From: a virus
DNA length: 22,210 nucleotides
IMG/VR virus record: IMGVR_UViG_3300025132_000347
Coordinates: 1 to 22,210 of that record
Reading direction: 5' to 3' (one strand)
The notes beneath the pieces are model-generated. The model searched no databases. It worked only from the letters and a program-made list of their open reading frames with translations, and was not told the DNA's origin. Made by a program: the position numbers and the translations under genes. Below, one piece after another: positions 749-8,758 of this stretch (within the stretch, counting starts at the first letter, position 1; every line of letters begins with the position of its first letter).

Positions 749-955
749 ATGGTGAAAAAGCAACGGTATAATTCACTGCTGGAACAGCTTTGTGCTGAAT
801 ATGAAGCATATGGTCATTATAAAGTGCGTATCCCTAGTCATCATTCGTATTATGTTAGGGCTGCACTTAAAGAACGTACCGGTCAAACCTTTAGCGTTGA
901 GGATGTTGAAAAGGCGTTGGTTGCTGAGGGCATGTTACCGTACGAAGGGAGCTAG
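749..955 (+). CDS. Small conserved-looking phage protein of unknown function
   Basis: The product is 68 aa, soluble, mixed-charge and probably helical. It has a Tyr/His-rich centre (HYKVRIPSHHSYYVR, residues 23-37) and a C-terminal part, RTGQTFSVEDVEKALVAEG (43-61), that reads like two short helices. I do not recognise a named family; short proteins like this occur in marine phages. The ATG at 749 has no Shine-Dalgarno sequence and sits just past a strong extended -10 promoter, so it is probably translated from a nearly leaderless message. It is the only gene between that promoter and the terminator at 1031-1070 and therefore a separate transcription unit from the late operon. This fits an early or regulatory role, which is inference. 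Confidence 0.75.
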   Translation: MVKKQRYNSLLEQLCAEYEAYGHYKVRIPSHHSYYVRAALKERTGQTFSVEDVEKALVAEGMLPYEGS

Positions 956-1030
956 CCAGCTACCCTGCCAACACGTTTGATGCTGTACTTATTCCTGCGG
1001 GGTTCGTTACAGCCGCTCAAAGGCAAAACA

Positions 1031-1070
1031 GGGACGGAATTTTCCAACGTTGAGTTCCGTCCCCCTTTTT
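1031..1070 (+). terminator. Intrinsic terminator
   Basis: A perfect 9-bp stem (GGGACGGAA at 1031-1039 with TTCCGTCCC at 1055-1063) closes a 15-base loop, whose base may extend the stem by a few G-U and A-U pairs. It is followed by CC and five T (1064-1070). This is a standard Rho-independent terminator for the 749-955 gene. It lies 12 bases before the first gene of the long rightward gene series, so that series must start from a promoter inside or beyond it, or be read by an antiterminated polymerase. Confidence 0.85.
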
Positions 1071-1082
1071 ATAGGTATAATA

Positions 1083-1310
1083 ATGAATCCACATATCTTT
1101 TTTATATTCTTTTCTGTAATAGTGTTACCTGATGGAGAAATAAAGACCCTATCAGAAAATGTAGTTAGATGCCCTTCTGAAGAAGTTGTATTAGAGATGC
1201 ACGTCCCAAAAGTACAGAGTGGTGAAATAGTAGACTGGGCTGCAGCATGTAAACCTATAACTGTTTTATTAGAGACCCCCACAGAAGATTCTAATAAACT
1301 GGAGACATAG
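1083..1310 (+). CDS. Small secreted-type protein with a Cys pair (A)
   Basis: The product is 75 aa. Residues 4-15 (HIFFIFFSVIVL) are a strongly hydrophobic N-terminal segment resembling a short signal peptide or anchor. The rest is polar, with two cysteines, C30 and C56, that could form a disulfide after export. The ATG at 1083 follows AGGT at 1073-1076; an in-frame TTG at 1050 would begin inside the terminator and is unlikely. It is the first gene after the terminator and leads the lysis region. The layout matches three other small proteins here (1317, 2416, 5268). Function is unknown; a periplasmic or cell-envelope role is inferred from the N-terminus. Confidence 0.7.
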   Translation: MNPHIFFIFFSVIVLPDGEIKTLSENVVRCPSEEVVLEMHVPKVQSGEIVDWAAACKPITVLLETPTEDSNKLET

Positions 1311-1316
1311 CATATA

Positions 1317-1529
1317 ATGTTTGAAGCTTCAATAGTAATTTGCGCTATAGCGCTATCCGATGGATGTATGAAATTTGATGATACTCGAGGGCCATATCTA
1401 ACTTATAACGAATGCAAGATAAGAACGGATGAAATGGTAGGAGCAATGGAGCCTTTCATGCCTCCTGAGCCAGATATAAGATTTAGATGTCGTAACATAA
1501 CAGAGGAGCCTGATGGCACGCAAACCTAG
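1317..1529 (+). CDS. Small secreted-type protein with Cys residues (B)
   Basis: The product is 70 aa with a hydrophobic start (residues 5-13, SIVICAIAL), an early pair C9 and C17, then C33 and C58. The middle reads FDDTRGPYLTYNECKIRTDEM, split by C33. This DTRGPY...EC...EM pattern is one I associate with small secreted proteins of marine phages, although I cannot name a family. The C33-C58 gap of 25 matches the gap in its neighbours at 1083 (26), 2416 (23) and 5268 (27). The ATG lies six bases after the previous stop, and its end overlaps the next gene by 17 bases, so the genes are translationally coupled. The gene belongs to the lysis region. Confidence 0.7.
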   Translation: MFEASIVICAIALSDGCMKFDDTRGPYLTYNECKIRTDEMVGAMEPFMPPEPDIRFRCRNITEEPDGTQT

Positions 1530-1797
1530 TAAAATGCCTCGGCGTAACAAGAAGAATTTTCGTTCCACTAAGTCTGGGGCGGGGATGACCGAGGCTGGGG
1601 TAAAAGCGTATCGCCGTATGAACCCGGGCTCCAAGCTTAAGACCGCTGTAACTGGTAAAGTAAAACCGGGCAGTAAGGCAGCGAAACGTAGGAAATCATT
1701 TTGTGCCCGTTCTGCGGGACAGATGAAGAAGTTTCCAAAGGCGGCTAAGAATCCGAATAGTCGTTTACGACAAGCTAGGAGACGCTGGAAATGTTAA
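1513..1797 (+). CDS. Highly basic small protein, DUF6321-like
   Basis: The product is 94 aa, dominated by Lys and Arg with few acidic residues. It starts MARKPSKMPRRNKKNFR, has a central GAGMTEAGVKAYRRMNPGSK block, then KPGSKAAKRRKSFCARSAGQ and a C-terminal LRQARRRWKC. The order 'GxGMTxxGVxxYRRxNPGSKLKT...KRRKSFCARS...RRWKC' matches, from memory, a family listed as DUF6321 in marine phages; the family number is unchecked. C78-type and terminal cysteines beside basic stretches might bind metal or nucleic acid. The ATG at 1513 has AGGAG at 1504-1508. The end overlaps the holin start by seven bases. Binding to DNA or RNA is inferred from charge only. Confidence 0.8.
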   Translation: MARKPSKMPRRNKKNFRSTKSGAGMTEAGVKAYRRMNPGSKLKTAVTGKVKPGSKAAKRRKSFCARSAGQMKKFPKAAKNPNSRLRQARRRWKC

Positions 1798-2174
1798 CAG
1801 CTTTGATTGGACCAATAGCTGATTTAGCCGGCACATGGATGTCTGGCAAAGTAGAAGAGAAGAAAGCCCAGTCTGCTACCAAAGTAGCGAAAGCACAGGC
1901 CGAAGCCATAGTTATGCAGAAGAAAGCTACTGGCGAAATTGACTGGGATTTGGAGATGGCTAAGGGTAGCCAGACATCGTGGAAAGACGAATGGCTTACC
2001 ATTTTGTTTTCGATACCACTTATTTTAGCTTTTATACCGGGGATGGAAGACCTTGTACGTAACGGATTTCAACAATTGGAGCAAATGCCTGAATGGTACC
2101 AGTACAGCTTGGGCGTTATTGTTGCTGCGAGCTTTGGAGTCCGGAGTGCAACAAAGTTTTTCGGTAAGAAATGA
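1791..2174 (+). CDS. Holin, 3-TM GTA-type (GTA_holin_3TM-like)
   Basis: The product is 127 aa. An N-terminal hydrophobic stretch (residues 1-17, including ALIGPIADLAGTWM) is followed by a Lys/Glu/Ala-rich helix (about 20-50). Two membrane segments then occur at about 68-83 (WLTILFSIPLILAFIPG) and 105-120 (SLGVIVAASFGVRSATK). The order DEWLT...IP.......FIPG...GF..L...PEWYQY..G.IVAASFG is the pattern of the holin family first described for gene-transfer-agent release. Its role would be to permeabilise the inner membrane and let the lysozyme at 2604 reach the wall. The ATG at 1791 overlaps the previous gene and follows AGGAG at 1776-1780. Its stop shares ATGA with the next membrane protein. Confidence 0.85.
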   Translation: MLTALIGPIADLAGTWMSGKVEEKKAQSATKVAKAQAEAIVMQKKATGEIDWDLEMAKGSQTSWKDEWLTILFSIPLILAFIPGMEDLVRNGFQQLEQMPEWYQYSLGVIVAASFGVRSATKFFGKK

Positions 2175-2419
2175 CGTATACAATGGAGAAAATATTAGCA
2201 TGGCGAATCCTCCCAAGACTGATGATGTTGGCAATGACACTGATGAGCTACCAGGTGGTTCAGTGGTTCATGGCTCTGGGTGCAAGTGCAACGACCCAGC
2301 AAACTGCCTTTGTGTCGACGGTTGTAGGGGCTATGACGGGGGCTTTTGCTGTATGGATGGGGCACGAGTCGAATAGCCCTGTAGAGTCTAGACCTCGTCG
2401 CTCGGAGTCAAGAAAATGA
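2171..2419 (+). CDS. 2-TM membrane protein of the lysis cassette
   Basis: The product is 82 aa with two likely membrane spans, about residues 13-34 (LPRLMMLAMTLMSYQVVQWFMAL) split from 44-60 (TAFVSTVVGAMTGAFAVWMG), and a charged Arg/Ser tail (68-82). The start overlaps the holin stop as ATGA, and its own stop overlaps the next start in the same way. The position between holin and lysozyme suggests an antiholin, pinholin or accessory holin. That function is inferred from position and topology; similar short proteins sit beside holins in other marine phages. Confidence 0.75.
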   Translation: MTYTMEKILAWRILPRLMMLAMTLMSYQVVQWFMALGASATTQQTAFVSTVVGAMTGAFAVWMGHESNSPVESRPRRSESRK

Positions 2420-2607
2420 CATCCGTAATATGGTCTTTAATACTCACAGTTTGTTCTAGTAATATATGTGCGACTCAAACTATTCAATGGTTTGACGAGC
2501 AGCCTGATTGTTTATATATGCAAAGAATACATGAAAATATACCGCAGGATGGGGAGTGGCAATCTGTAACCTACAGATGCACAATCGTAGGAGCTAAAGA
2601 AATATGA
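2416..2607 (+). CDS. Small secreted-type protein with a Cys pair (C)
   Basis: The product is 63 aa. Residues 1-19 (MTSVIWSLILTVCSSNICA) form a signal-like hydrophobic N-terminus with C13 and C18; the first could be a lipobox-type or disulfide cysteine. The mature part has WFDEQPDCLYM with C32, and YRC at C55. The segment F-acidic-acidic-...-CLY matches protein D at 5268 (IFEDMDKCLYF). It starts in an ATGA overlap with the previous gene, and its stop overlaps the lysozyme ATG. Its place directly before the endolysin suits a lysis-associated envelope protein, perhaps spanin-like, but it is shorter than most spanins and lacks a clear coiled coil. I do not assign a function. Confidence 0.7.
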   Translation: MTSVIWSLILTVCSSNICATQTIQWFDEQPDCLYMQRIHENIPQDGEWQSVTYRCTIVGAKEI

Positions 2608-3089
2608 AATACAATGTTTCACATTTTTTAGATAAATTGATTGAGCACGAGGGCATGGTCCTAGATGTATACAAAGACAGCCTCGGCATCGACACTATTG
2701 GAATAGGCCGTAACCTTAAAGACCGTGGCATCAGTAAAGATGAGCTTGATTACATGGACATCCCTAATATGGATGCTGTGTATCAGCATGGTATATCCGA
2801 GGCCGATGCCCGGTACTTAGCCATGAATGACATACGCATAGTTGAAGTTGAGCTATGTCGCGTACATTCTTGTGTTGAGGACTTAGATAGCACAAGGCAA
2901 CTAATACTTATGGACATGGCATTCAATATGGGAGTGCCACGTTTATGTAAGTTTAAGAATATGTGGAATGCTATTTATGAACAAAATTATGAAGCGGCAT
3001 CCCGAGAGATGATGGATTCGCGTTGGGCACGTCAGGTAGGGCGCCGCGCTGTAATTTTATCTGATGCTATGAAAAGCGGAGAATTTTAA
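2604..3089 (+). CDS. Endolysin, T4-type lysozyme (GH24)
   Basis: The product is 161 aa and probably hydrolyses the N-acetylmuramic acid to N-acetylglucosamine bond of peptidoglycan. The start of the fold is clear: E16 in IEHEG, D25 in YKD and T31 in DTIGIG. Their spacing (9 and 6) equals that of E11, D20 and T26 in T4 lysozyme, which is 164 aa long. The C-terminal half carries LILMDMAFNMG (100-110) and SRWARQVGRRA (139-149), matching the conserved NMG and SRW...RA elements. There is no signal peptide or SAR segment, so export depends on the holin at 1791. The start overlaps the previous stop (ATGA). The next gene begins directly after its TAA. Confidence 0.93.
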   Translation: MKYNVSHFLDKLIEHEGMVLDVYKDSLGIDTIGIGRNLKDRGISKDELDYMDIPNMDAVYQHGISEADARYLAMNDIRIVEVELCRVHSCVEDLDSTRQLILMDMAFNMGVPRLCKFKNMWNAIYEQNYEAASREMMDSRWARQVGRRAVILSDAMKSGEF

Positions 3090-3584
3090 ATGGGTTTATT
3101 TGATGCAATAGCAAGTGATTTTAAAAGGCGCAGAGATTTAATGGGCAGCGGAAAACAATCAAAAACAAAGGACCAAGAGAAATCCCAAGACACTGGGTAT
3201 GAAAAGGCTCCTCCGAAAGAATTTCCGCTGGTTAATGCTAAAGGAGAAACAACTCCCGAGTCCATGCATAAAGGATACCTTAAATCTTTTGGGGAGTATC
3301 TGAAAGCGCAGGGTATGAGCATGCCTAACTATGTGAAAACTCAAGATGTTACGGCATACCTAAAGACTCGCACCAGAGAAAAGAAAAAGGGTGGAACTAA
3401 AATGGCTAAAAAACATATCATGGAATTGCCTACCAACGTGCCGCGTATGATGGCAGGGGCTAATCTTATGAATCCAAAGAAAGCAGACCTTGATAAAGAC
3501 GGTAAGCTAAACTCGTATGAAAAGGCTCGTGGTCGCGCTATTGAAAAGTCCATGAATGAGAAGAAAAAGACCCGTGGCGCCTAG
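3090..3584 (+). CDS. Basic protein with one EF-hand-type calcium loop
   Basis: The product is 164 aa. Residues 1-30 are helical and basic (MGLFDAIASDFKRRRDL), and 60-100 hold a Tyr/Lys-rich region. A perfect 12-residue EF-hand loop, DLDKDGKLNSYE, lies at about 133-144, with Asp at loop positions 1, 3 and 5, Gly at 6, Leu at 8 and Glu at 12. It is followed by a basic helix (KARGRAIEKSM) and a Lys-rich tail. A single canonical loop suggests calcium binding and possibly pairing with a partner. An internal in-frame ATG near 3401 (MAKKHIMELP) could yield a 60-aa form with the loop alone. ATG 3090 follows GGAG at 3078-3081. The whole-protein role is unknown; a virion or assembly protein is possible. 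Confidence 0.75.
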   Translation: MGLFDAIASDFKRRRDLMGSGKQSKTKDQEKSQDTGYEKAPPKEFPLVNAKGETTPESMHKGYLKSFGEYLKAQGMSMPNYVKTQDVTAYLKTRTREKKKGGTKMAKKHIMELPTNVPRMMAGANLMNPKKADLDKDGKLNSYEKARGRAIEKSMNEKKKTRGA

Positions 3585-3873
3585 AGTACCACGGAAAAAA
3601 GGTCAGCCTGCAAGAAGTAAGAAACATAGCGACCTTTACACTGATGAGAACCCGAAAGGCACTATAAAGGGCTTAAAGTTTGCTACCACAAAAGATGCGC
3701 AGGCATCAGTTAGAAAGATTCGAGCATCAGGAAAAACGCATGCTCACAAGACACAAGCGGCGATTGCTATGGAACAACGGGCAAGAGCTGCAGGAAAAAC
3801 AAGTGCGGCAGCTGTGTATCGTAAGTTCATAGAGCAACAGAAAAAGAAAACTCGTGCATCCCGTAGAAGCTGA
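3556..3873 (+). CDS. Basic marine-phage protein with HSDLYTDENPKGTIKGL motif
   Basis: The product is 105 aa, very basic, with the ordered block KKHSDLYTDENPKGTIKGL (about 22-40), then KIRASGKTHAHKTQAAIAM and ARAAGKTSAAAVYRKFIEQ. These are the segments I would expect to be conserved: an acidic turn followed by two helices ending in a basic tail. I believe related proteins recur in marine phages, but I give no family name. Two starts are possible: ATG 3556, or GTG 3574, which begins at VAPRVPRKK and leaves only an 11-base overlap with the previous gene. Neither has a strong ribosome site. The region before GTG 3574 is purine-rich. Function unknown; nucleic-acid binding inferred from charge. Confidence 0.75.
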   Translation: MRRKRPVAPRVPRKKGQPARSKKHSDLYTDENPKGTIKGLKFATTKDAQASVRKIRASGKTHAHKTQAAIAMEQRARAAGKTSAAAVYRKFIEQQKKKTRASRRS

Positions 3874-4456
3874 TATCCGTAAGTGGTCTCATAATTTTCT
3901 AGAGATACCACACATTAAATTAAACGGATTACCTCCTTGTCCATACGCGCAGAAAGCATGGGCAGAGGATAAGGTTAAATTCAGTATCAATACCGGTTTA
4001 GATGGATTGATTGATGAAGTTAAAGGATTTGACCAACACAACTACGATATAGTTGTTTGGGCAGAGGAAGAGTTACCTGACATACAGTATCTTGATGGCT
4101 GGTGCGACGGTATGAATGAAGCATTATCTATAAATGACATGGATATGCATCTAATGGTCTTTCATCCTGATTATGATGCCGAGGATGCTGGACTAGAGTT
4201 CTTGATTCAGGAAGAACAAGAAGATTTAGAATACTGTATGGTATTCGTACAGCGGTTATCATTACTTGATGATGCTGCTTTAAGTCTGGAGAAATCAGGT
4301 TACTACAAACATTTTCCAGACGATATTTTTGAAAGCCTAGTGTTGGAAAGAAGGAAACTTAGATATGGCAATGCACAAAAAGAAACCCATGAAGGCCCGC
4401 AAGGGAAAAATGAAAATGGCCAAAATGCGTGGTGGCGGCATGAAGACACAGCCTAA
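3854..4456 (+). CDS. 200-aa protein with CPYA motif (DUF1415-reminiscent)
   Basis: The frame opens with GTG at 3854, with no usable ATG until residue 87, and overlaps the previous gene by 20 bases. Residues 7-45 contain DIRKWSHNFLEIPH and LNGLPPCPYAQKAW. The 'W......P.....LPPCPYA..AW' arrangement recalls the CPFA signature of DUF1415 proteins, a loose resemblance. Further conserved-looking parts are GWCDGMNEAL (82-91), HPDYDAEDAGLEFL (104-117), YCMVFVQRLSLLDDAALSLEKSGYY around 127-151, split by its repeats of Leu/Asp, and FESLVLERRKLR (159-170). After residue 170 the character changes to polar low complexity, because the last 30 codons are shared with the Met-rich gene at 4365. It is acidic, unlike its neighbours. 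Function unknown; C29 with acidic residues could bind metal. Confidence 0.8.
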   Translation: MHPVEADIRKWSHNFLEIPHIKLNGLPPCPYAQKAWAEDKVKFSINTGLDGLIDEVKGFDQHNYDIVVWAEEELPDIQYLDGWCDGMNEALSINDMDMHLMVFHPDYDAEDAGLEFLIQEEQEDLEYCMVFVQRLSLLDDAALSLEKSGYYKHFPDDIFESLVLERRKLRYGNAQKETHEGPQGKNENGQNAWWRHEDTA

Positions 4457-4532
4457 AATGACTGCGCGTGGTGGCAAAATGAAGATGGCCCGCAAAATGC
4501 GTGGCGGCGGTATGAACAACAAGAAAAAATAA
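4365..4532 (+). CDS. Met/Lys/Gly-rich repeat peptide
   Basis: This 55-aa gene overlaps the end of the 200-aa gene in another frame. It has AAGGA at 4351-4355, nine bases before the ATG, and its TAA is followed directly by the ATG of the next gene. The composition is extreme: nearly all Met, Lys, Arg, Gly and a few Ala. A motif occurs twice, KMKMAKMRGGGM and KMKMARKMRGGGM, about 22 residues apart. It has no hydrophobic core and should be disordered or fold only on a polyanion. Short 'KMARGGM' repeat peptides occur in other marine phages as far as I recall. Nucleic-acid or capsid-interior binding is inferred from charge. Confidence 0.7.
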   Translation: MAMHKKKPMKARKGKMKMAKMRGGGMKTQPKMTARGGKMKMARKMRGGGMNNKKK

Positions 4533-4886
4533 ATGCCTAGAGTTGTCGATGGTTCAAAATTTAATACCGTCGGTGTTACACCGGGTGCTGCTGGAACTAC
4601 AGTTTATACGGTTCCAGCAAACCACGCGGCTATAGTTCGGCATTTTAGTTTAAGCAATAATAATTCTGGCGCTAAAAAAGTAACAGTTCAATATTACGAT
4701 TCAAAATCTACCACGTACTATTTTATTGCGCAGGACTTATCTCTTGCGGCTAACTCGTACATTAACATACTAAATAGCAATGTATTGGCGTTAAACGCTT
4801 CAGATAAAATTATTGCAACGGCAGAAACGGCTGGCACCATATCAGCTCTAGTATCCGTGGAAGAATACTACGACCCTAATAGGTAA
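4533..4886 (+). CDS. Small beta-rich protein, probable virion component
   Basis: The product is 117 aa, rich in Thr, Val, Ala and Asn, with alternating hydrophobic residues typical of a beta sandwich. Near the N-terminus it has GTTVYTVPANHAAIVRHFSL, followed by KVTVQYYDS, and near the C-terminus GTISALVSVEEYY. The 'YTVP......' segment recurs in the last gene of the window (NIYTVPSSTTTV), which follows the tail fibre. Small proteins of this shape decorate capsids or tails in other phages. It starts directly at the previous stop, and the next gene follows after four bases. A virion role is inferred from the fold impression and the duplicate among tail genes. Confidence 0.75.
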   Translation: MPRVVDGSKFNTVGVTPGAAGTTVYTVPANHAAIVRHFSLSNNNSGAKKVTVQYYDSKSTTYYFIAQDLSLAANSYINILNSNVLALNASDKIIATAETAGTISALVSVEEYYDPNR

Positions 4887-4890
4887 ATAG

Positions 4891-5061
4891 ATGGCCGCTA
4901 AGAAAAAAAAATCTAAATCAAAAAAGCCTGTCCCAACAAAACCAGCTCTCTGGAGTAAAGCAAAAGCGGAAGCCAAAAGAAAATTCAAGGTCTACCCTTC
5001 TGCTTACGCGAATGCTTTTGCATCTAAAAGATATAAAGCTATGGGCGGCGGCTGGCGCTAA
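4891..5061 (+). CDS. Small basic protein with LWSKAKAEAKRKF motif
   Basis: This 56-aa gene starts with ATG four bases after the previous stop. The N-terminus is a Lys tract (residues 3-12). The rest reads PALWSKAKAEAKRKFKVYP then SAYANAFASKRYKAMGGGWR to the end. The arrangement 'LWSKAKAEAKRKFxVYPSAYAN.(W/F)A.K.YK..GGGWR' is one I recall as recurrent in cyanophages and other marine phages, with no known function. The compact pattern of aromatic and basic residues suggests a small folded helical nucleic-acid-binding protein, which is inference. It belongs to the cluster of basic proteins between the lysis and packaging genes. Confidence 0.75.
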   Translation: MAAKKKKSKSKKPVPTKPALWSKAKAEAKRKFKVYPSAYANAFASKRYKAMGGGWR

Positions 5062-5065
5062 GCGA

Positions 5066-5266
5066 ATGGAAAATCCTGTAGCGATAACAGTTAAAGAAAA
5101 TAGCTTTGAACTTATACTTAGAATACTCGGAAATGAGTTTATTGCAATTAGGATTGGTTCAACCAATTTCAGTGGTAAATTAATTGCAGGTAGTATTTTA
5201 CTATTGTTCTTTACTTTTATGCTATTAGAAGTATTTGGCCTATCTCGAATACTGGGCATTGAATAG
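5066..5266 (+). CDS. Small membrane protein, one C-terminal TM
   Basis: The product is 66 aa. Residues 8-33 form an amphipathic stretch (ELILRILGNEFIAIRIGS) and residues 37-58 a membrane span (KLIAGSILLLFFTFMLLEVF), with a short end LSRILGIE. The ATG at 5066 is four bases after the previous stop; an in-frame TTG at 5012 lies inside the previous gene and would add an implausible extension. One base separates its stop from protein D. The pairing of a membrane protein and a secreted Cys protein repeats the order seen at 2171 and 2416. It could be a second holin-type or superinfection-exclusion protein; nothing in the sequence decides. Confidence 0.7.
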   Translation: MENPVAITVKENSFELILRILGNEFIAIRIGSTNFSGKLIAGSILLLFFTFMLLEVFGLSRILGIE

Positions 5267-5267
5267 A

Positions 5268-5450
5268 ATGATTGCGTTTGTCCTAGTCGTATATATGGGT
5301 TCACAAATAATAAATCAAACCCAAATCTTTGAGGACATGGATAAGTGTTTGTATTTCGCAAATAAGTTGTCTAGACAGCCTGCCATATACACTAAACAAA
5401 ATGAACGAATAAAAATGACAGCGATATGCAAACCAATTAATAAAACATGA
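5268..5450 (+). CDS. Small secreted-type protein with a Cys pair (D)
   Basis: The product is 60 aa. The N-terminus MIAFVLVVYMGSQ is hydrophobic and signal-like. The mature part has IFEDMDKCLYFANKL with C27 and AICKPI with C54. It resembles protein C at 2416 around the first cysteine (F, two acidic residues, then CLY plus an aromatic or Met) and protein A at 1083 around the second (ACKPI against ICKPI). The ATG at 5268 is one base after the previous stop; the in-frame TTG upstream at 5235 lies within that gene. Function unknown; a periplasmic role is inferred. Confidence 0.7.
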   Translation: MIAFVLVVYMGSQIINQTQIFEDMDKCLYFANKLSRQPAIYTKQNERIKMTAICKPINKT

Positions 5451-5459
5451 GGCGTGGAG

Positions 5460-5957
5460 ATGATTGCAGAAACCCTAGCGGGGATTGCGCTTGTAAAGAG
5501 CGCAGTCGATGGTATCAAATCTGCAATCGGAACAGCTAAAGATGTTGGGGAGATTGCAGGACATATAGATAATCTCCTAACTGGAGAAACGCAAATACAA
5601 CAGAAACGCTCAAAAAAATCGGGCGTTGGTATTGGCGAACAGTTTGGAATTAAATCTGTAGCACAAGAAGTTATAGATGCAAAGTTAGCGCAAGAAAAAA
5701 TTCAAGAGATGCGCACCATGATTGACTTGAGATTTGGACCGGGAACATGGCAGAGCATTGTAGACGAAAGAGCTAGAAGAATTCAAGAGGCAAGGCAGGC
5801 TGAACTTAAAGCTAAAAAAGAAGCCCAACGTAAACATCAAGAGTTCTTAGAGCAGTTACAAATTGGAGCAGGTATCACTATTGTAGGACTTATTGCTTTA
5901 GGATTTTTATTATTTGCAATGGTATCTATGGCAGCTGTTGCTTTTATACACGGGTAG
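5460..5957 (+). CDS. Coiled-coil protein with C-terminal membrane anchor
   Basis: The product is 165 aa from ATG 5460, which follows GAGG at 5449-5452 with a 7-base gap; an upstream in-frame GTG at 5454 is too close to that site. Residues 1-40 form an amphipathic helix (ETLAGIALVKSAVDGIKSA). A Lys/Ser linker (50-60) leads to FGIKSVAQEVIDAKLAQEKIQEM and DLRFGPGTWQSIVDERARRI, then a long charged coiled coil (about 100-136). A single hydrophobic span follows at about 137-160 (GAGITIVGLIALGFLLFAMV). The FGxGTWQSI-DERA segment looks conserved. The layout fits an inner-membrane-anchored protein. Candidates are a lysis (spanin-like) protein or an ejected virion protein; I do not choose. Confidence 0.75.
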   Translation: MIAETLAGIALVKSAVDGIKSAIGTAKDVGEIAGHIDNLLTGETQIQQKRSKKSGVGIGEQFGIKSVAQEVIDAKLAQEKIQEMRTMIDLRFGPGTWQSIVDERARRIQEARQAELKAKKEAQRKHQEFLEQLQIGAGITIVGLIALGFLLFAMVSMAAVAFIHG

Positions 5958-5969
5958 AGGCTTTATATT

Positions 5970-6251
5970 ATGGCATATCAAGGAGGACTCCGTAAGTGGT
6001 TCAAAGAAGATTGGCGAGACGTAGCGACAGGAAAAAAGTGTGGGCGTAAATCGGCTGGCAAATCAAAGAGAAAGTATCCTGCGTGTCGCCCGAAGGCGGT
6101 TGCTGACAGAATGTCCAAAGGACAGAAAGCTTCAGCAGTCCGTAAAAAAAGAAAAGCAGGAAATCCCGGAGGAAAGCCAACCTCAATTAAGTGGTCCGTA
6201 TCACCCACTGGACGGAAACGTAAGACCAAACGGAAAACTTCAAAAGCATGA
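5970..6251 (+). CDS. Very basic DUF5872-like protein
   Basis: The product is 93 aa, Lys/Arg/Ser-rich. The N-terminal GGLRKWFKEDWRDVATGKKC is followed by GRKSAGKSKRKYPACRPKA. The pattern 'G..RWF.E.W.DV..GK.CGR.......YP.CRP' matches, from memory, DUF5872, found in marine phages and some large eukaryotic viruses. The two cysteines (C24 and C39) lie in that block and may bind metal. The last 40 residues are a disordered basic tail. GAGG at 5957-5960 precedes the ATG by nine bases. The stop shares ATGA with the next gene. Nucleic-acid binding is inferred; its biochemical role is unknown to me. Confidence 0.8.
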   Translation: MAYQGGLRKWFKEDWRDVATGKKCGRKSAGKSKRKYPACRPKAVADRMSKGQKASAVRKKRKAGNPGGKPTSIKWSVSPTGRKRKTKRKTSKA

Positions 6252-6505
6252 CCAGTAAACGTAATTACAGAAAAGAGTATGATAACTACCACAGTCGTAC
6301 TAAGCAAAAGAAGCGCCGCGCTTCGCGTAATACGGCTCGTGCTATTATGGCTAGAAAAGGTAAAGTTACTAAAGGTGATGGCAAAGACGTGCACCATACC
6401 TCTGGCAATCCGATGAATAATAAGAAGTTAGCCGTAAAATCCAAAAGCCGTAACAGGTCTTTTGCAAGAACCAAAACAGGTAGAAAGAAAAATCCTCGTG
6501 CCTAA
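6248..6505 (+). CDS. Small basic HNH_3-like protein
   Basis: The product is 85 aa and very basic. Residues 45-71 read GKDVHHTSGNPMNNKKL then AVKSKSRNRS. This corresponds to the HNH_3-type core 'D-x-H-x-x-G-N-P-x-N-N-...-L-x-V-x-S-x-x-x-N-R': H50 would be the metal/general-base His, N57/N58 the middle position and N69 the last residue of the motif. HNH proteins beside terminase genes assist DNA packaging in several phages (established for HK97 gp74). This one is the gene directly before TerS, but it is shorter than typical nucleases, so it may be inactive or a DNA-binding remnant. It starts at an ATGA overlap and ends inside the TerS start region. Confidence 0.7.
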   Translation: MTSKRNYRKEYDNYHSRTKQKKRRASRNTARAIMARKGKVTKGDGKDVHHTSGNPMNNKKLAVKSKSRNRSFARTKTGRKKNPRA

Positions 6506-6899
6506 TCAAAGACAACTTACAGAACTGCAAAGTAAATTCCTTGATGCCTTGTTTAGCGAAGCAAAAGGCAATTACGCTAAGGCGTTGAGACTTGCAGGAT
6601 ATTCCGAAACTACAAATCCGTATGCGATTATGCAATCGCTGCGCACAGAGATTATTGAACGTGCAGAACTTGAGATGGCGGCTAACGCACCTAAAGCAGT
6701 ATTTTCTATGGTAGGTGTGTTAGATGACCCAACAGCTATCGGTAACAGAGAGAAACTGTCCGCCTCGCAACAAATTCTTGACAGAGTTGGACTTTCTAAG
6801 GTAGAAAAATTAAACGTATCAGCAGAAAAACCGATGGGCTTATTTATATTACCGGCTAAACATGATGACGATAGCACAGCAATTGAATCCAACGAATAG
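6498..6899 (+). CDS. terS: Terminase small subunit (TerS)
   Basis: The product is 133 aa from GTG 6498, overlapping the previous gene by eight bases; an in-frame TTG at 6462 would add a basic extension inside that gene. It recognises phage DNA and regulates the large subunit at 7136. The N-terminal LTELQSKFLDALF...GNYAKALRLAGYSETT (about 6-40) is a TerS-type helix-turn-helix. The remainder matches the pattern MAxNAPKAxFxMVGVLDDPTAxG.REKL.A...ILDRVGLSKVEKL, split over residues 62-112. The order TerS-HTH-TerL-portal supports the call. The gene overlaps its successor by 38 bases. There is no clear Shine-Dalgarno site before GTG, so translation probably depends on coupling. Confidence 0.85.
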   Translation: MPNQRQLTELQSKFLDALFSEAKGNYAKALRLAGYSETTNPYAIMQSLRTEIIERAELEMAANAPKAVFSMVGVLDDPTAIGNREKLSASQQILDRVGLSKVEKLNVSAEKPMGLFILPAKHDDDSTAIESNE

Positions 6900-7200
6900 A
6901 TATGACAGAGCCAATGGGCCTCATGTGCCTTGGGGATATCAAAGAAGCGAGTTTGACCGTCAATTGTTGGAGCCTATAGAAGAACAATTAGAAGCGCTAG
7001 AGTTGGGCATAAGATATTTAAAGATGTCTTCATACCCAGAAGTTGCTAGATGGCTTACGGATTACACAGGTAGACGGATAACACCTATGGGCTTGTGGAA
7101 ACGTGTTAAGCGTGATGCATCGGATAGACGTAAACATGTTGAACAAAAACGCCGTGCTGCCCAGGCCGCGTCCCAAGGCAACATCCAAACCCAAAACTAA
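6862..7200 (+). CDS. Small HTH-like protein between terminase subunits
   Basis: The product is 112 aa, starting at ATG 6862 (another ATG follows at once at 6865) within the end of terS. Residues 18-30 read ANGPHVPWGYQRS. Residues 45-85 hold LELGIRYLKMSSYPEVARWL and YTGRRITPMGLWKRVK, resembling the C-terminal helix-turn-helix of serine recombinases, which reads a short DNA element with 'A.WL....G....P..V...L'. No catalytic domain is present. Residues 86-112 are basic and polar and overlap the terminase large subunit start. A DNA-binding role in packaging or late regulation is inferred from this and from its position. Confidence 0.8.
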   Translation: MMTIAQQLNPTNRYDRANGPHVPWGYQRSEFDRQLLEPIEEQLEALELGIRYLKMSSYPEVARWLTDYTGRRITPMGLWKRVKRDASDRRKHVEQKRRAAQAASQGNIQTQN

Positions 7201-8758
7201 AGAACAACGGGCTCAGGATAAGTTAAAAAAAGATAAACGTTCTGCTCGTATGCAGCTTAACATGGCGCAGAAGAAACTGTTAAAGTTAGAAAAACAGGGA
7301 CAGCCAGAGCAGGAAGAAGAATTAATAGGGGCTAGTGCTTATCAGCCTGTTGAACAACAGGAAGATGAAATACTATTTGAACCTAATAAAGGACCGCAAA
7401 CAGATTTTTTGGCTTCATCGGAACGGGAAGTGTTGTATGGTGGAGCAGCAGGCGGCGGTAAGTCATACGCTTTAATTATTGACCCGCTACGATACTGTCA
7501 GAATTCAAATTTCAACGCGTTGATTTTACGTAGAACAAACGATGAATTGCGCGAACTGATACACAAAAGTCAGGAGATGTATCCAAAAGCATACCCCGGC
7601 GCCAAATGGATGGAAAAGAAAAGCCAATGGACTTTCCCATCTGGGGCAAGAATCTGGATGACATATCTAGAGCAGGACAAAGATGTTCTGCGGTATCAAG
7701 GTCAGGCATTTACCTATATTGGCATAGATGAACTGACACAGTATTCGACACCTTATGCTTGGGATTATTTACGCTCGCGTCTTAGAACTGCAGACCCCTC
7801 GCTCCCCGTATTCATGCGGGCGACGACGAACCCAGGCGGGCCTGGACATGCGTGGGTTAAGAAGATGTTTATCGACCCTAGCCCACATAACAAATCGTTT
7901 TGGGCGACTGATATTACTACGGGTGAAACGCTGGTTTACCCAGAGCGTCATAGCAAATCGGGTCAGCCGCTGTTCAAGCGCCGTTTCATTCCAGCTCGGT
8001 TGTTGGATAATCCGTACCTTTATGAGCAAGGCGATTACGAAGCGATGTTGCTTTCGCTGCCCGAGGTACAGCGTAGGCAGTTATTAGAAGGTTCATGGGA
8101 CATTGCAGAAGGTGCAGCTTTCTCAGAGTTTAGTAGATTACATCATGTTGTTGAACCATATGCTATACCGAATTCATGGCGCAAGTTTAGGGCTTGTGAT
8201 TACGGTTACTCCTCTGCTACCGGGGTTCTTTGGTTTGCTGTAGACCCAGCAGATGAAACACTACTTATATATAGGGAACTGTATGTAAGTAAGGTAACTG
8301 CAAAAGAATTAGCGCATATGGTGCTGGCGGCAGAAGAGGGAGAGTCCATGCATTATGGCGTATTAGACTCTTCACTGTGGCACAAACGAGGCGACACAGG
8401 CCCGAGCCTAGCTGAACAGATGATTGTCGAGGGTTGTCGATGGCGCCCATCAGATAGAAGCCGAGGCAGTCGTGTAGCCGGTAAGAACGAAGTTCATAGA
8501 CGCCTGATGGTCAATGATGAGACAGGGCGAGCTGGCATGGAGATATTTAGTAATTGCACTAACTTAATAGCACAGTTACCGACACTGCCGCTGGATAAGA
8601 ATAACCCCGAGGATGTCAACACTAAATCTGAAGACCACCTATACGATGCTTTGCGATATGGTATTATGTCGCGTCCACAATCACGGTCCATCTTTGATTA
8701 CCCAAGTCAAATACCTATACAAAGATGGCAACCCGCTGATACAAATTTTGGATATTAA
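7136..8758 (+). CDS. terL: Terminase large subunit (TerL), ATPase and nuclease
   Basis: The product is 540 aa from ATG 7136 and pumps and cuts phage DNA. The ATPase has a Walker A GGAAGGGKS (102-110), Walker B IGIDE (195-199) and coupling motif TTNPGG (230-235) followed by PGHAWVKK. The nuclease (RuvC-like) has acidic residues at ACDYG (D355), GVLDSS (D411) and DHLYDALRYG (D500, D504). Residues 1-70 are a Lys/Gln-rich leader. The start is uncertain: GTG 7103, ATG 7115, ATG 7136 and GTG 7154 are all in frame, all overlap the previous gene and none has a strong ribosome site. The next gene is the portal. Confidence 0.95.
   Translation: MLNKNAVLPRPRPKATSKPKTKEQRAQDKLKKDKRSARMQLNMAQKKLLKLEKQGQPEQEEELIGASAYQPVEQQEDEILFEPNKGPQTDFLASSEREVLYGGAAGGGKSYALIIDPLRYCQNSNFNALILRRTNDELRELIHKSQEMYPKAYPGAKWMEKKSQWTFPSGARIWMTYLEQDKDVLRYQGQAFTYIGIDELTQYSTPYAWDYLRSRLRTADPSLPVFMRATTNPGGPGHAWVKKMFIDPSPHNKSFWATDITTGETLVYPERHSKSGQPLFKRRFIPARLLDNPYLYEQGDYEAMLLSLPEVQRRQLLEGSWDIAEGAAFSEFSRLHHVVEPYAIPNSWRKFRACDYGYSSATGVLWFAVDPADETLLIYRELYVSKVTAKELAHMVLAAEEGESMHYGVLDSSLWHKRGDTGPSLAEQMIVEGCRWRPSDRSRGSRVAGKNEVHRRLMVNDETGRAGMEIFSNCTNLIAQLPTLPLDKNNPEDVNTKSEDHLYDALRYGIMSRPQSRSIFDYPSQIPIQRWQPADTNFGY

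Follow-up and report, generated by a model that had tools for sequence, protein, structure and literature searches.

We analysed a 22,210-nucleotide stretch of viral DNA (IMG/VR record IMGVR_UViG_3300025132_000347, positions 1 to 22,210), hereafter the window. Its sequence identifies this 22.2-kb record as part of an HMO-2011-type marine phage. The terminase showed a 66-69% match to those of Roseobacter phage CRP-345 and Puniceispirillum phage HMO-2011, and its lysozyme a 66% match to that of HMO-2011. Positions 749-8758 represent the left part of a late operon, whose gene order was matched in many IMG/VR contigs, and four small genes with paired Cys residues, here named A, B, C and D, lie in this region (Table 1). 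The protein that opens the operon resembles HMO-2011 gp71, and in many relatives its gene is followed directly by B or A. Between the Cys miniproteins lie several tiny proteins rich in Lys and Arg; MRGGGM-type repeats occur in one of them, and four of their families were also present in 46-57 related loci. A further small family in the same operon (family Q; L005:5443-5649 and 18 other sequences) has two Cys near the C-terminus and gave a weak match to the profile of Pfam family DUF1482 (E 0.0023).

Table 1. Genes in the late-operon part of the window
Feature	Position	Strand	Description
Opening gene	749-955		Conserved 68-aa protein opening the late operon
A	1083..1310	+	75 aa; Cys30/Cys56 (26 apart); late-operon start region, downstream of the 749 gene
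B	1317..1529	+	70 aa; C33/C58 (25 apart), plus Cys9/Cys17; DxxGPY motif
Holin-like membrane protein	1791..2174	+	phrog_2524
Small membrane protein	2171..2419	+	phrog_10198; upstream of C; found in 121 loci
C	2416..2607	+	63 aa; Cys32/Cys55 (23 apart), plus Cys13/Cys18; DUF1482/YdfD-like
Phage lysozyme	2604..3089	+	PF00959; directly 3' of C
TM protein	5066-5266		Precedes D
D	5268..5450	+	60 aa; Cys27/Cys54 (27 apart)
Partner gene of D	5454..5957	+	Charged; C-terminal hydrophobic segment; no significant family
Tiny Lys/Arg-rich proteins	1513-1797, 3556-3873, 4365-4532, 4891-5061, 5970-6251, 6248-6505		Between the Cys miniproteins

A check of the sequence bore out the ORFs, sizes, and Cys positions and spacings that an earlier sequence-only reading had given for A-D, together with the neighbours it had named, namely a membrane protein before C with the lysozyme next, and a TM protein before D. 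Of the ORFs in the fetched loci, 88 of 2217 on the plus strand (4.0%) and 99 of 3223 on the minus strand (3.1%) fitted the bare plan by which the four had been grouped (hydrophobic start plus Cys spacing); taken alone, this plan is a weak signal, close to chance. That A-D are more than chance follows from their homologues, which keep both Cys in each of the four families, and from low dN/dS values (medians: A, 0.22; B, 0.23; C, 0.10; D, 0.08; every pair below 1). These results demonstrate that A-D are genuine conserved genes under purifying selection. IMG/VR relatives numbered at least 284 for C, at least 115 for B and, counted as contigs, at least 12 for A, while the D family had 24 members in the terminase-selected loci. 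B and C each contain a second Cys pair that the earlier reading had not mentioned, and this pair was invariant in the 47 aligned homologues of B and the 36 of C. The C family is marked by the motifs QxxQWF[DE] and HEx[IL]PxDG, and the D family by F-x-D...C(L/N/V)(Y/W) and CxP. Two short likenesses had been taken to join the proteins, CKPI for A and D and CLY for C and D. Among 14 A homologues only that of the window itself carried CKPI, and CLY was present at the helix Cys in one of about 60 C homologues. Neither is conserved, and on these counts both are coincidences of one genome.

Searches of Pfam, PHROGs and NCBIfam with the four window proteins yielded no significant match. One B homologue matched Pfam Ral (E 0.014); this was taken as chance. 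Separately, B's four-Cys plan (MTPIDLVVTVCAVLSPTTC...C...C) was seen in chromosomal 70-80-aa proteins of two proteobacterial genomes (L288 and L289), which the B profile matched weakly (E 0.0016 and 0.0039).

Structure prediction with AlphaFold2 gave confident models for two of the proteins. D (21-sequence alignment; pLDDT 88.9) was modelled as strand 2-10, strand 13-21, helix 24-35 and strand 50-58, and B (47 sequences; pLDDT 87.3, core >90) as strand 2-9, strand 17-21, helix 30-47 and strand 53-60. The order of elements is identical, and a single predicted beta-beta-alpha-beta mini-fold for B and D is well supported. In both models, the hydrophobic N-terminus is predicted to be strand 1 of a hairpin. 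In the B model, one residue of the universal Cys pair is close to where the helix starts and the other is in strand 3; the residues of the extra pair fall where strand 1 ends and strand 2 begins. The sequence of A is compatible with the same beta-beta-alpha-beta arrangement, and we infer that A and C have the B/D fold. The common plan appears to be real for B, C and D, and is likely for A. Among the best 50 matches in Foldseek searches against BFVD were small phage proteins with TM values that reached 0.84 for D and roughly 0.65 for B; they were mostly of 53-97 aa, with functions unknown, and resembled B and D in predicted fold but were far apart from them in sequence (identity mostly 10-25%). 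The top-50 lists of B and D had no entry in common and therefore show no common relative of the two. A Foldseek search of the PDB with the D model matched no solved structure, nor did PDB searches with the sequence profiles of B and C.

To place C among known families, we compared it with Pfam DUF1482 (PF07358). This family was matched by 15 of 36 C homologues (best E 5.6e-5), although the top homologue, at 24.3 bits, fell just below the Pfam gathering cut-off of 25 bits; the window's own C had no DUF1482 match in Pfam. An independent DUF1482 profile was built from enterobacterial-type sequences alone, taken from proteobacterial genomes, E. coli and prophages. When it was run against 17,540 phage-locus ORFs, the top 31 matches all belonged to the C family (best E 2.7e-5). 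Comparison by hhalign linked DUF1482 to C (E 1.7e-5) and to B (E 1.3e-4). In these DUF1482 comparisons, no unrelated family from the same loci scored better than E 0.015 (0.0092 when the comparisons with the D-G link are counted too), and the strongest reversed profile reached 8.5e-4. The reverse search, with the C profile against 399 genomes including DUF1482 carriers, did not recover DUF1482. C32 and C55 are invariant; the helix Cys aligns with the helix Cys of DUF1482, and the strand-3 Cys lies outside the aligned part. In the collected DUF1482 sequences, the hairpin Cys pair was present as both residues or neither, never one, which fits a paired structural role. These computations support C as a distant relative of DUF1482, and the profile-profile match is suggestive of a relation of B to the same family.

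The DUF1482 family includes E. coli YdfD (b1576; E 3.9e-26), whose gene is located in the Qin prophage; no DUF1482 gene was present in the Rac prophage region that we checked. C resembles DUF1482/YdfD in its length of about 60 aa, its phage-borne gene, a hydrophobic first strand, a hairpin with an optional Cys pair, one Cys where the helix begins and another in the last strand, and an n-region that is not positive. It differs in its longer helix-strand loop (HEx[IL]PxDGxW), and it is encoded in the late operon of a marine phage, whereas ydfD lies in an early operon with dicB. The enzyme bound by YdfD, IspG, is cytosolic, and this characterised relative therefore acts inside the cell. Lu et al. 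2022 (PMC8835842) report that expression of YdfD, a 63-aa protein, lyses cells, and that it binds IspG in pull-down, gel-filtration and ITC assays (Kd 18 uM) and, inside cells, by FRET; overexpressing ispG or supplying HMBPP prevented lysis, and YdfD with mutated Cys still bound IspG. The earlier remark that no such function was known is partly right, but YdfD, the sole characterised relative, lyses cells by a cytosolic route (PMC8835842). IspG binding and inhibition with lysis are known for YdfD only, and might extend to C by analogy.

We then compared the gene positions across phages. In roughly one third of the loci, C was flanked by the 2171-type membrane gene and the lysozyme (34 of 94 adjoin the lysozyme); in 40 of 94 it came straight after the terminase, and there the membrane-gene/lysozyme cassette was complete without it. 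D adjoined the 5454-type gene in 62 of 85 loci, regardless of where the lysis genes were located. The 749-type gene was often followed by B or A, and the presence of each family differed between close relatives. A C homologue adjoined tmRNA in OM43 phage Melnitz, and another (L262:4004-4192), on the sole contig of this kind from a profile scan of genome contigs, lay near a helicase gene on a T4-like contig in a Rickettsiales MAG (MED657). In Roseobacter phage RDJL6, a B homologue was found near DNA polymerase, and in CRP-345 a J-type protein between endonuclease VII and thymidylate synthase. HMO-2011 gp70 (B) and gp62 (D), and CRP-345 gp76 and gp22, are homologues or E/J types with the same Cys plan; all are annotated only as hypothetical, and CRP-345 gp22 lies among replication genes. 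With relatives near tmRNA, helicase, DNA polymerase and thymidylate synthase, and with C in a mobile position, a dedicated lysis role is unsupported.

These positions also bear on the possibility that A-D are virion or assembly accessory proteins, made late with the capsid, terminase and portal genes, whose disulfides form after release. All four genes lie in the late operon, D mostly keeps its 5454-type neighbour and C often directly follows the terminase, and such a role would account for conserved Cys pairs without a signal peptide. However, relatives lie in replication or early regions of other phages, DUF1482 genes of prophages occupy the early dicB or repressor region, and the presence of each family is variable among close relatives, so we regard a virion or assembly function as unlikely.

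Direct profile comparison among A, B, C and D gave weak scores only, and these were set aside as evidence in view of the high scores of some reversed-profile controls. Links to intermediate families were stronger in hhalign, at E 1.1e-4 between the D family and family G and E 5.4e-7 between the B family and families I/E; D-DUF1482 was not significant (E 0.035), and A had no significant link to B, C, D or DUF1482. Because some reversed-profile controls within these Cys-rich families scored equally high (E 1.5e-5 to 1e-4), E values near 1e-4 are suggestive, not conclusive. The D-G relation, and the tie of D to other members through G, are accordingly to be read as suggestive only. The claim of one diverged family thus held in part: the predicted fold of B and D and the B-DUF1482-C and D-G profile matches favour it, while A has no significant link. 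Were the four unrelated small proteins that share their plan by coincidence, one would expect what was seen for the bare plan (barely above background), for the unconserved CKPI and CLY, and for A. Such an origin is improbable in view of the identical predicted topology of B and D, and of profile matches in which DUF1482 joins B and C, and G joins D to other members.

The sequence-only reading had described the four proteins as secreted or periplasmic. In nearly all homologues of A-D, the n-region had a net charge of 0 or -1, and the uncharged stretch had a median length of 14 residues in A and of 11-12 in the other three. A positive n-region with a helical h-region, as in Sec export, was not found in the n-region charges or in the B and D models. 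The short uncharged run, the neutral or acidic n-region and the confidently predicted N-terminal strand of B and D argue against a Sec signal or TM anchor. A superinfection-exclusion lipoprotein would carry a signal peptide II with a lipobox Cys. Some C homologues read LTAC, but with an n-region of neutral or acidic charge, and in DUF1482 relatives that Cys is lost along with its partner. A spanin would need a periplasmic domain and, to anchor it, a lipobox or TM segment, and the B and D models contain neither a TM helix nor a coiled coil; CRP-345 gp68, annotated as spanin2 family, is a protein distinct from A-D. The proposed roles in lysis, spanin-like disruption or superinfection exclusion are not supported by the anatomy, given the lack of an evident lipobox/TM/coiled-coil plan, the mobile gene position and the relatives among replication or early genes. 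Exported periplasmic disulfide miniproteins with such roles would suit the hydrophobic N-termini and paired Cys, the lysozyme next to C in some loci, and YdfD, which is termed a lysis protein and has been proposed to be membrane-associated, but the N-terminal strand, the n-region charge, the short uncharged run and the cassette that stays intact where C sits behind the terminase leave them very little credence. We infer instead a cytosolic location for A-D.

We tentatively favour, with a probability of about 0.45, the explanation that B, C, D and probably A belong to a much diverged phage superfamily of small cytosolic host-directed inhibitors. At least three of the four proteins seem to have one small fold in common, related to YdfD. 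The class would be phage-wide and very diverged, comprising beta-beta-alpha-beta mini-proteins of about 60-75 aa in which the hydrophobic N-terminus forms strand 1 and makes a hairpin with strand 2, to which B and C add a closing Cys pair; the first universal Cys would open the helix, and the second would sit in strand 3. Since no export signal is recognisable, the mini-proteins should fold and act in the cytoplasm of the infected cell. By analogy with YdfD, each of them would act in host takeover by binding a host enzyme and inhibiting it, and the target of C may be an envelope-precursor enzyme such as IspG; both the inhibition and any specific target are here extrapolated from YdfD. Against a cytosolic site, a reducing cytoplasm is an unusual place for invariant Cys pairs, which leaves room for a virion-associated role, and against an inhibitor, the location in a late structural operon also suits a function in the virion or its assembly.

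Small phage proteins of this kind are nearly always filed as hypothetical, and taking strand 1 for a signal peptide was a tempting misreading that is now corrected. It is conceivable, though doubtful, that dominant marine phages carry several YdfD-like mini-proteins per operon, each blocking a different host enzyme, that C inhibits isoprenoid/envelope-precursor synthesis and so primes lysis, and that phages in general use the beta-beta-alpha-beta Cys-pair fold as a scaffold for inhibitors. The predicted common fold, for which the PDB searches (D fold, B and C profiles) returned no matching solved structure, together with the studied relative YdfD, would make these proteins testable candidates for host-enzyme inhibitors in an abundant group of ocean phages.
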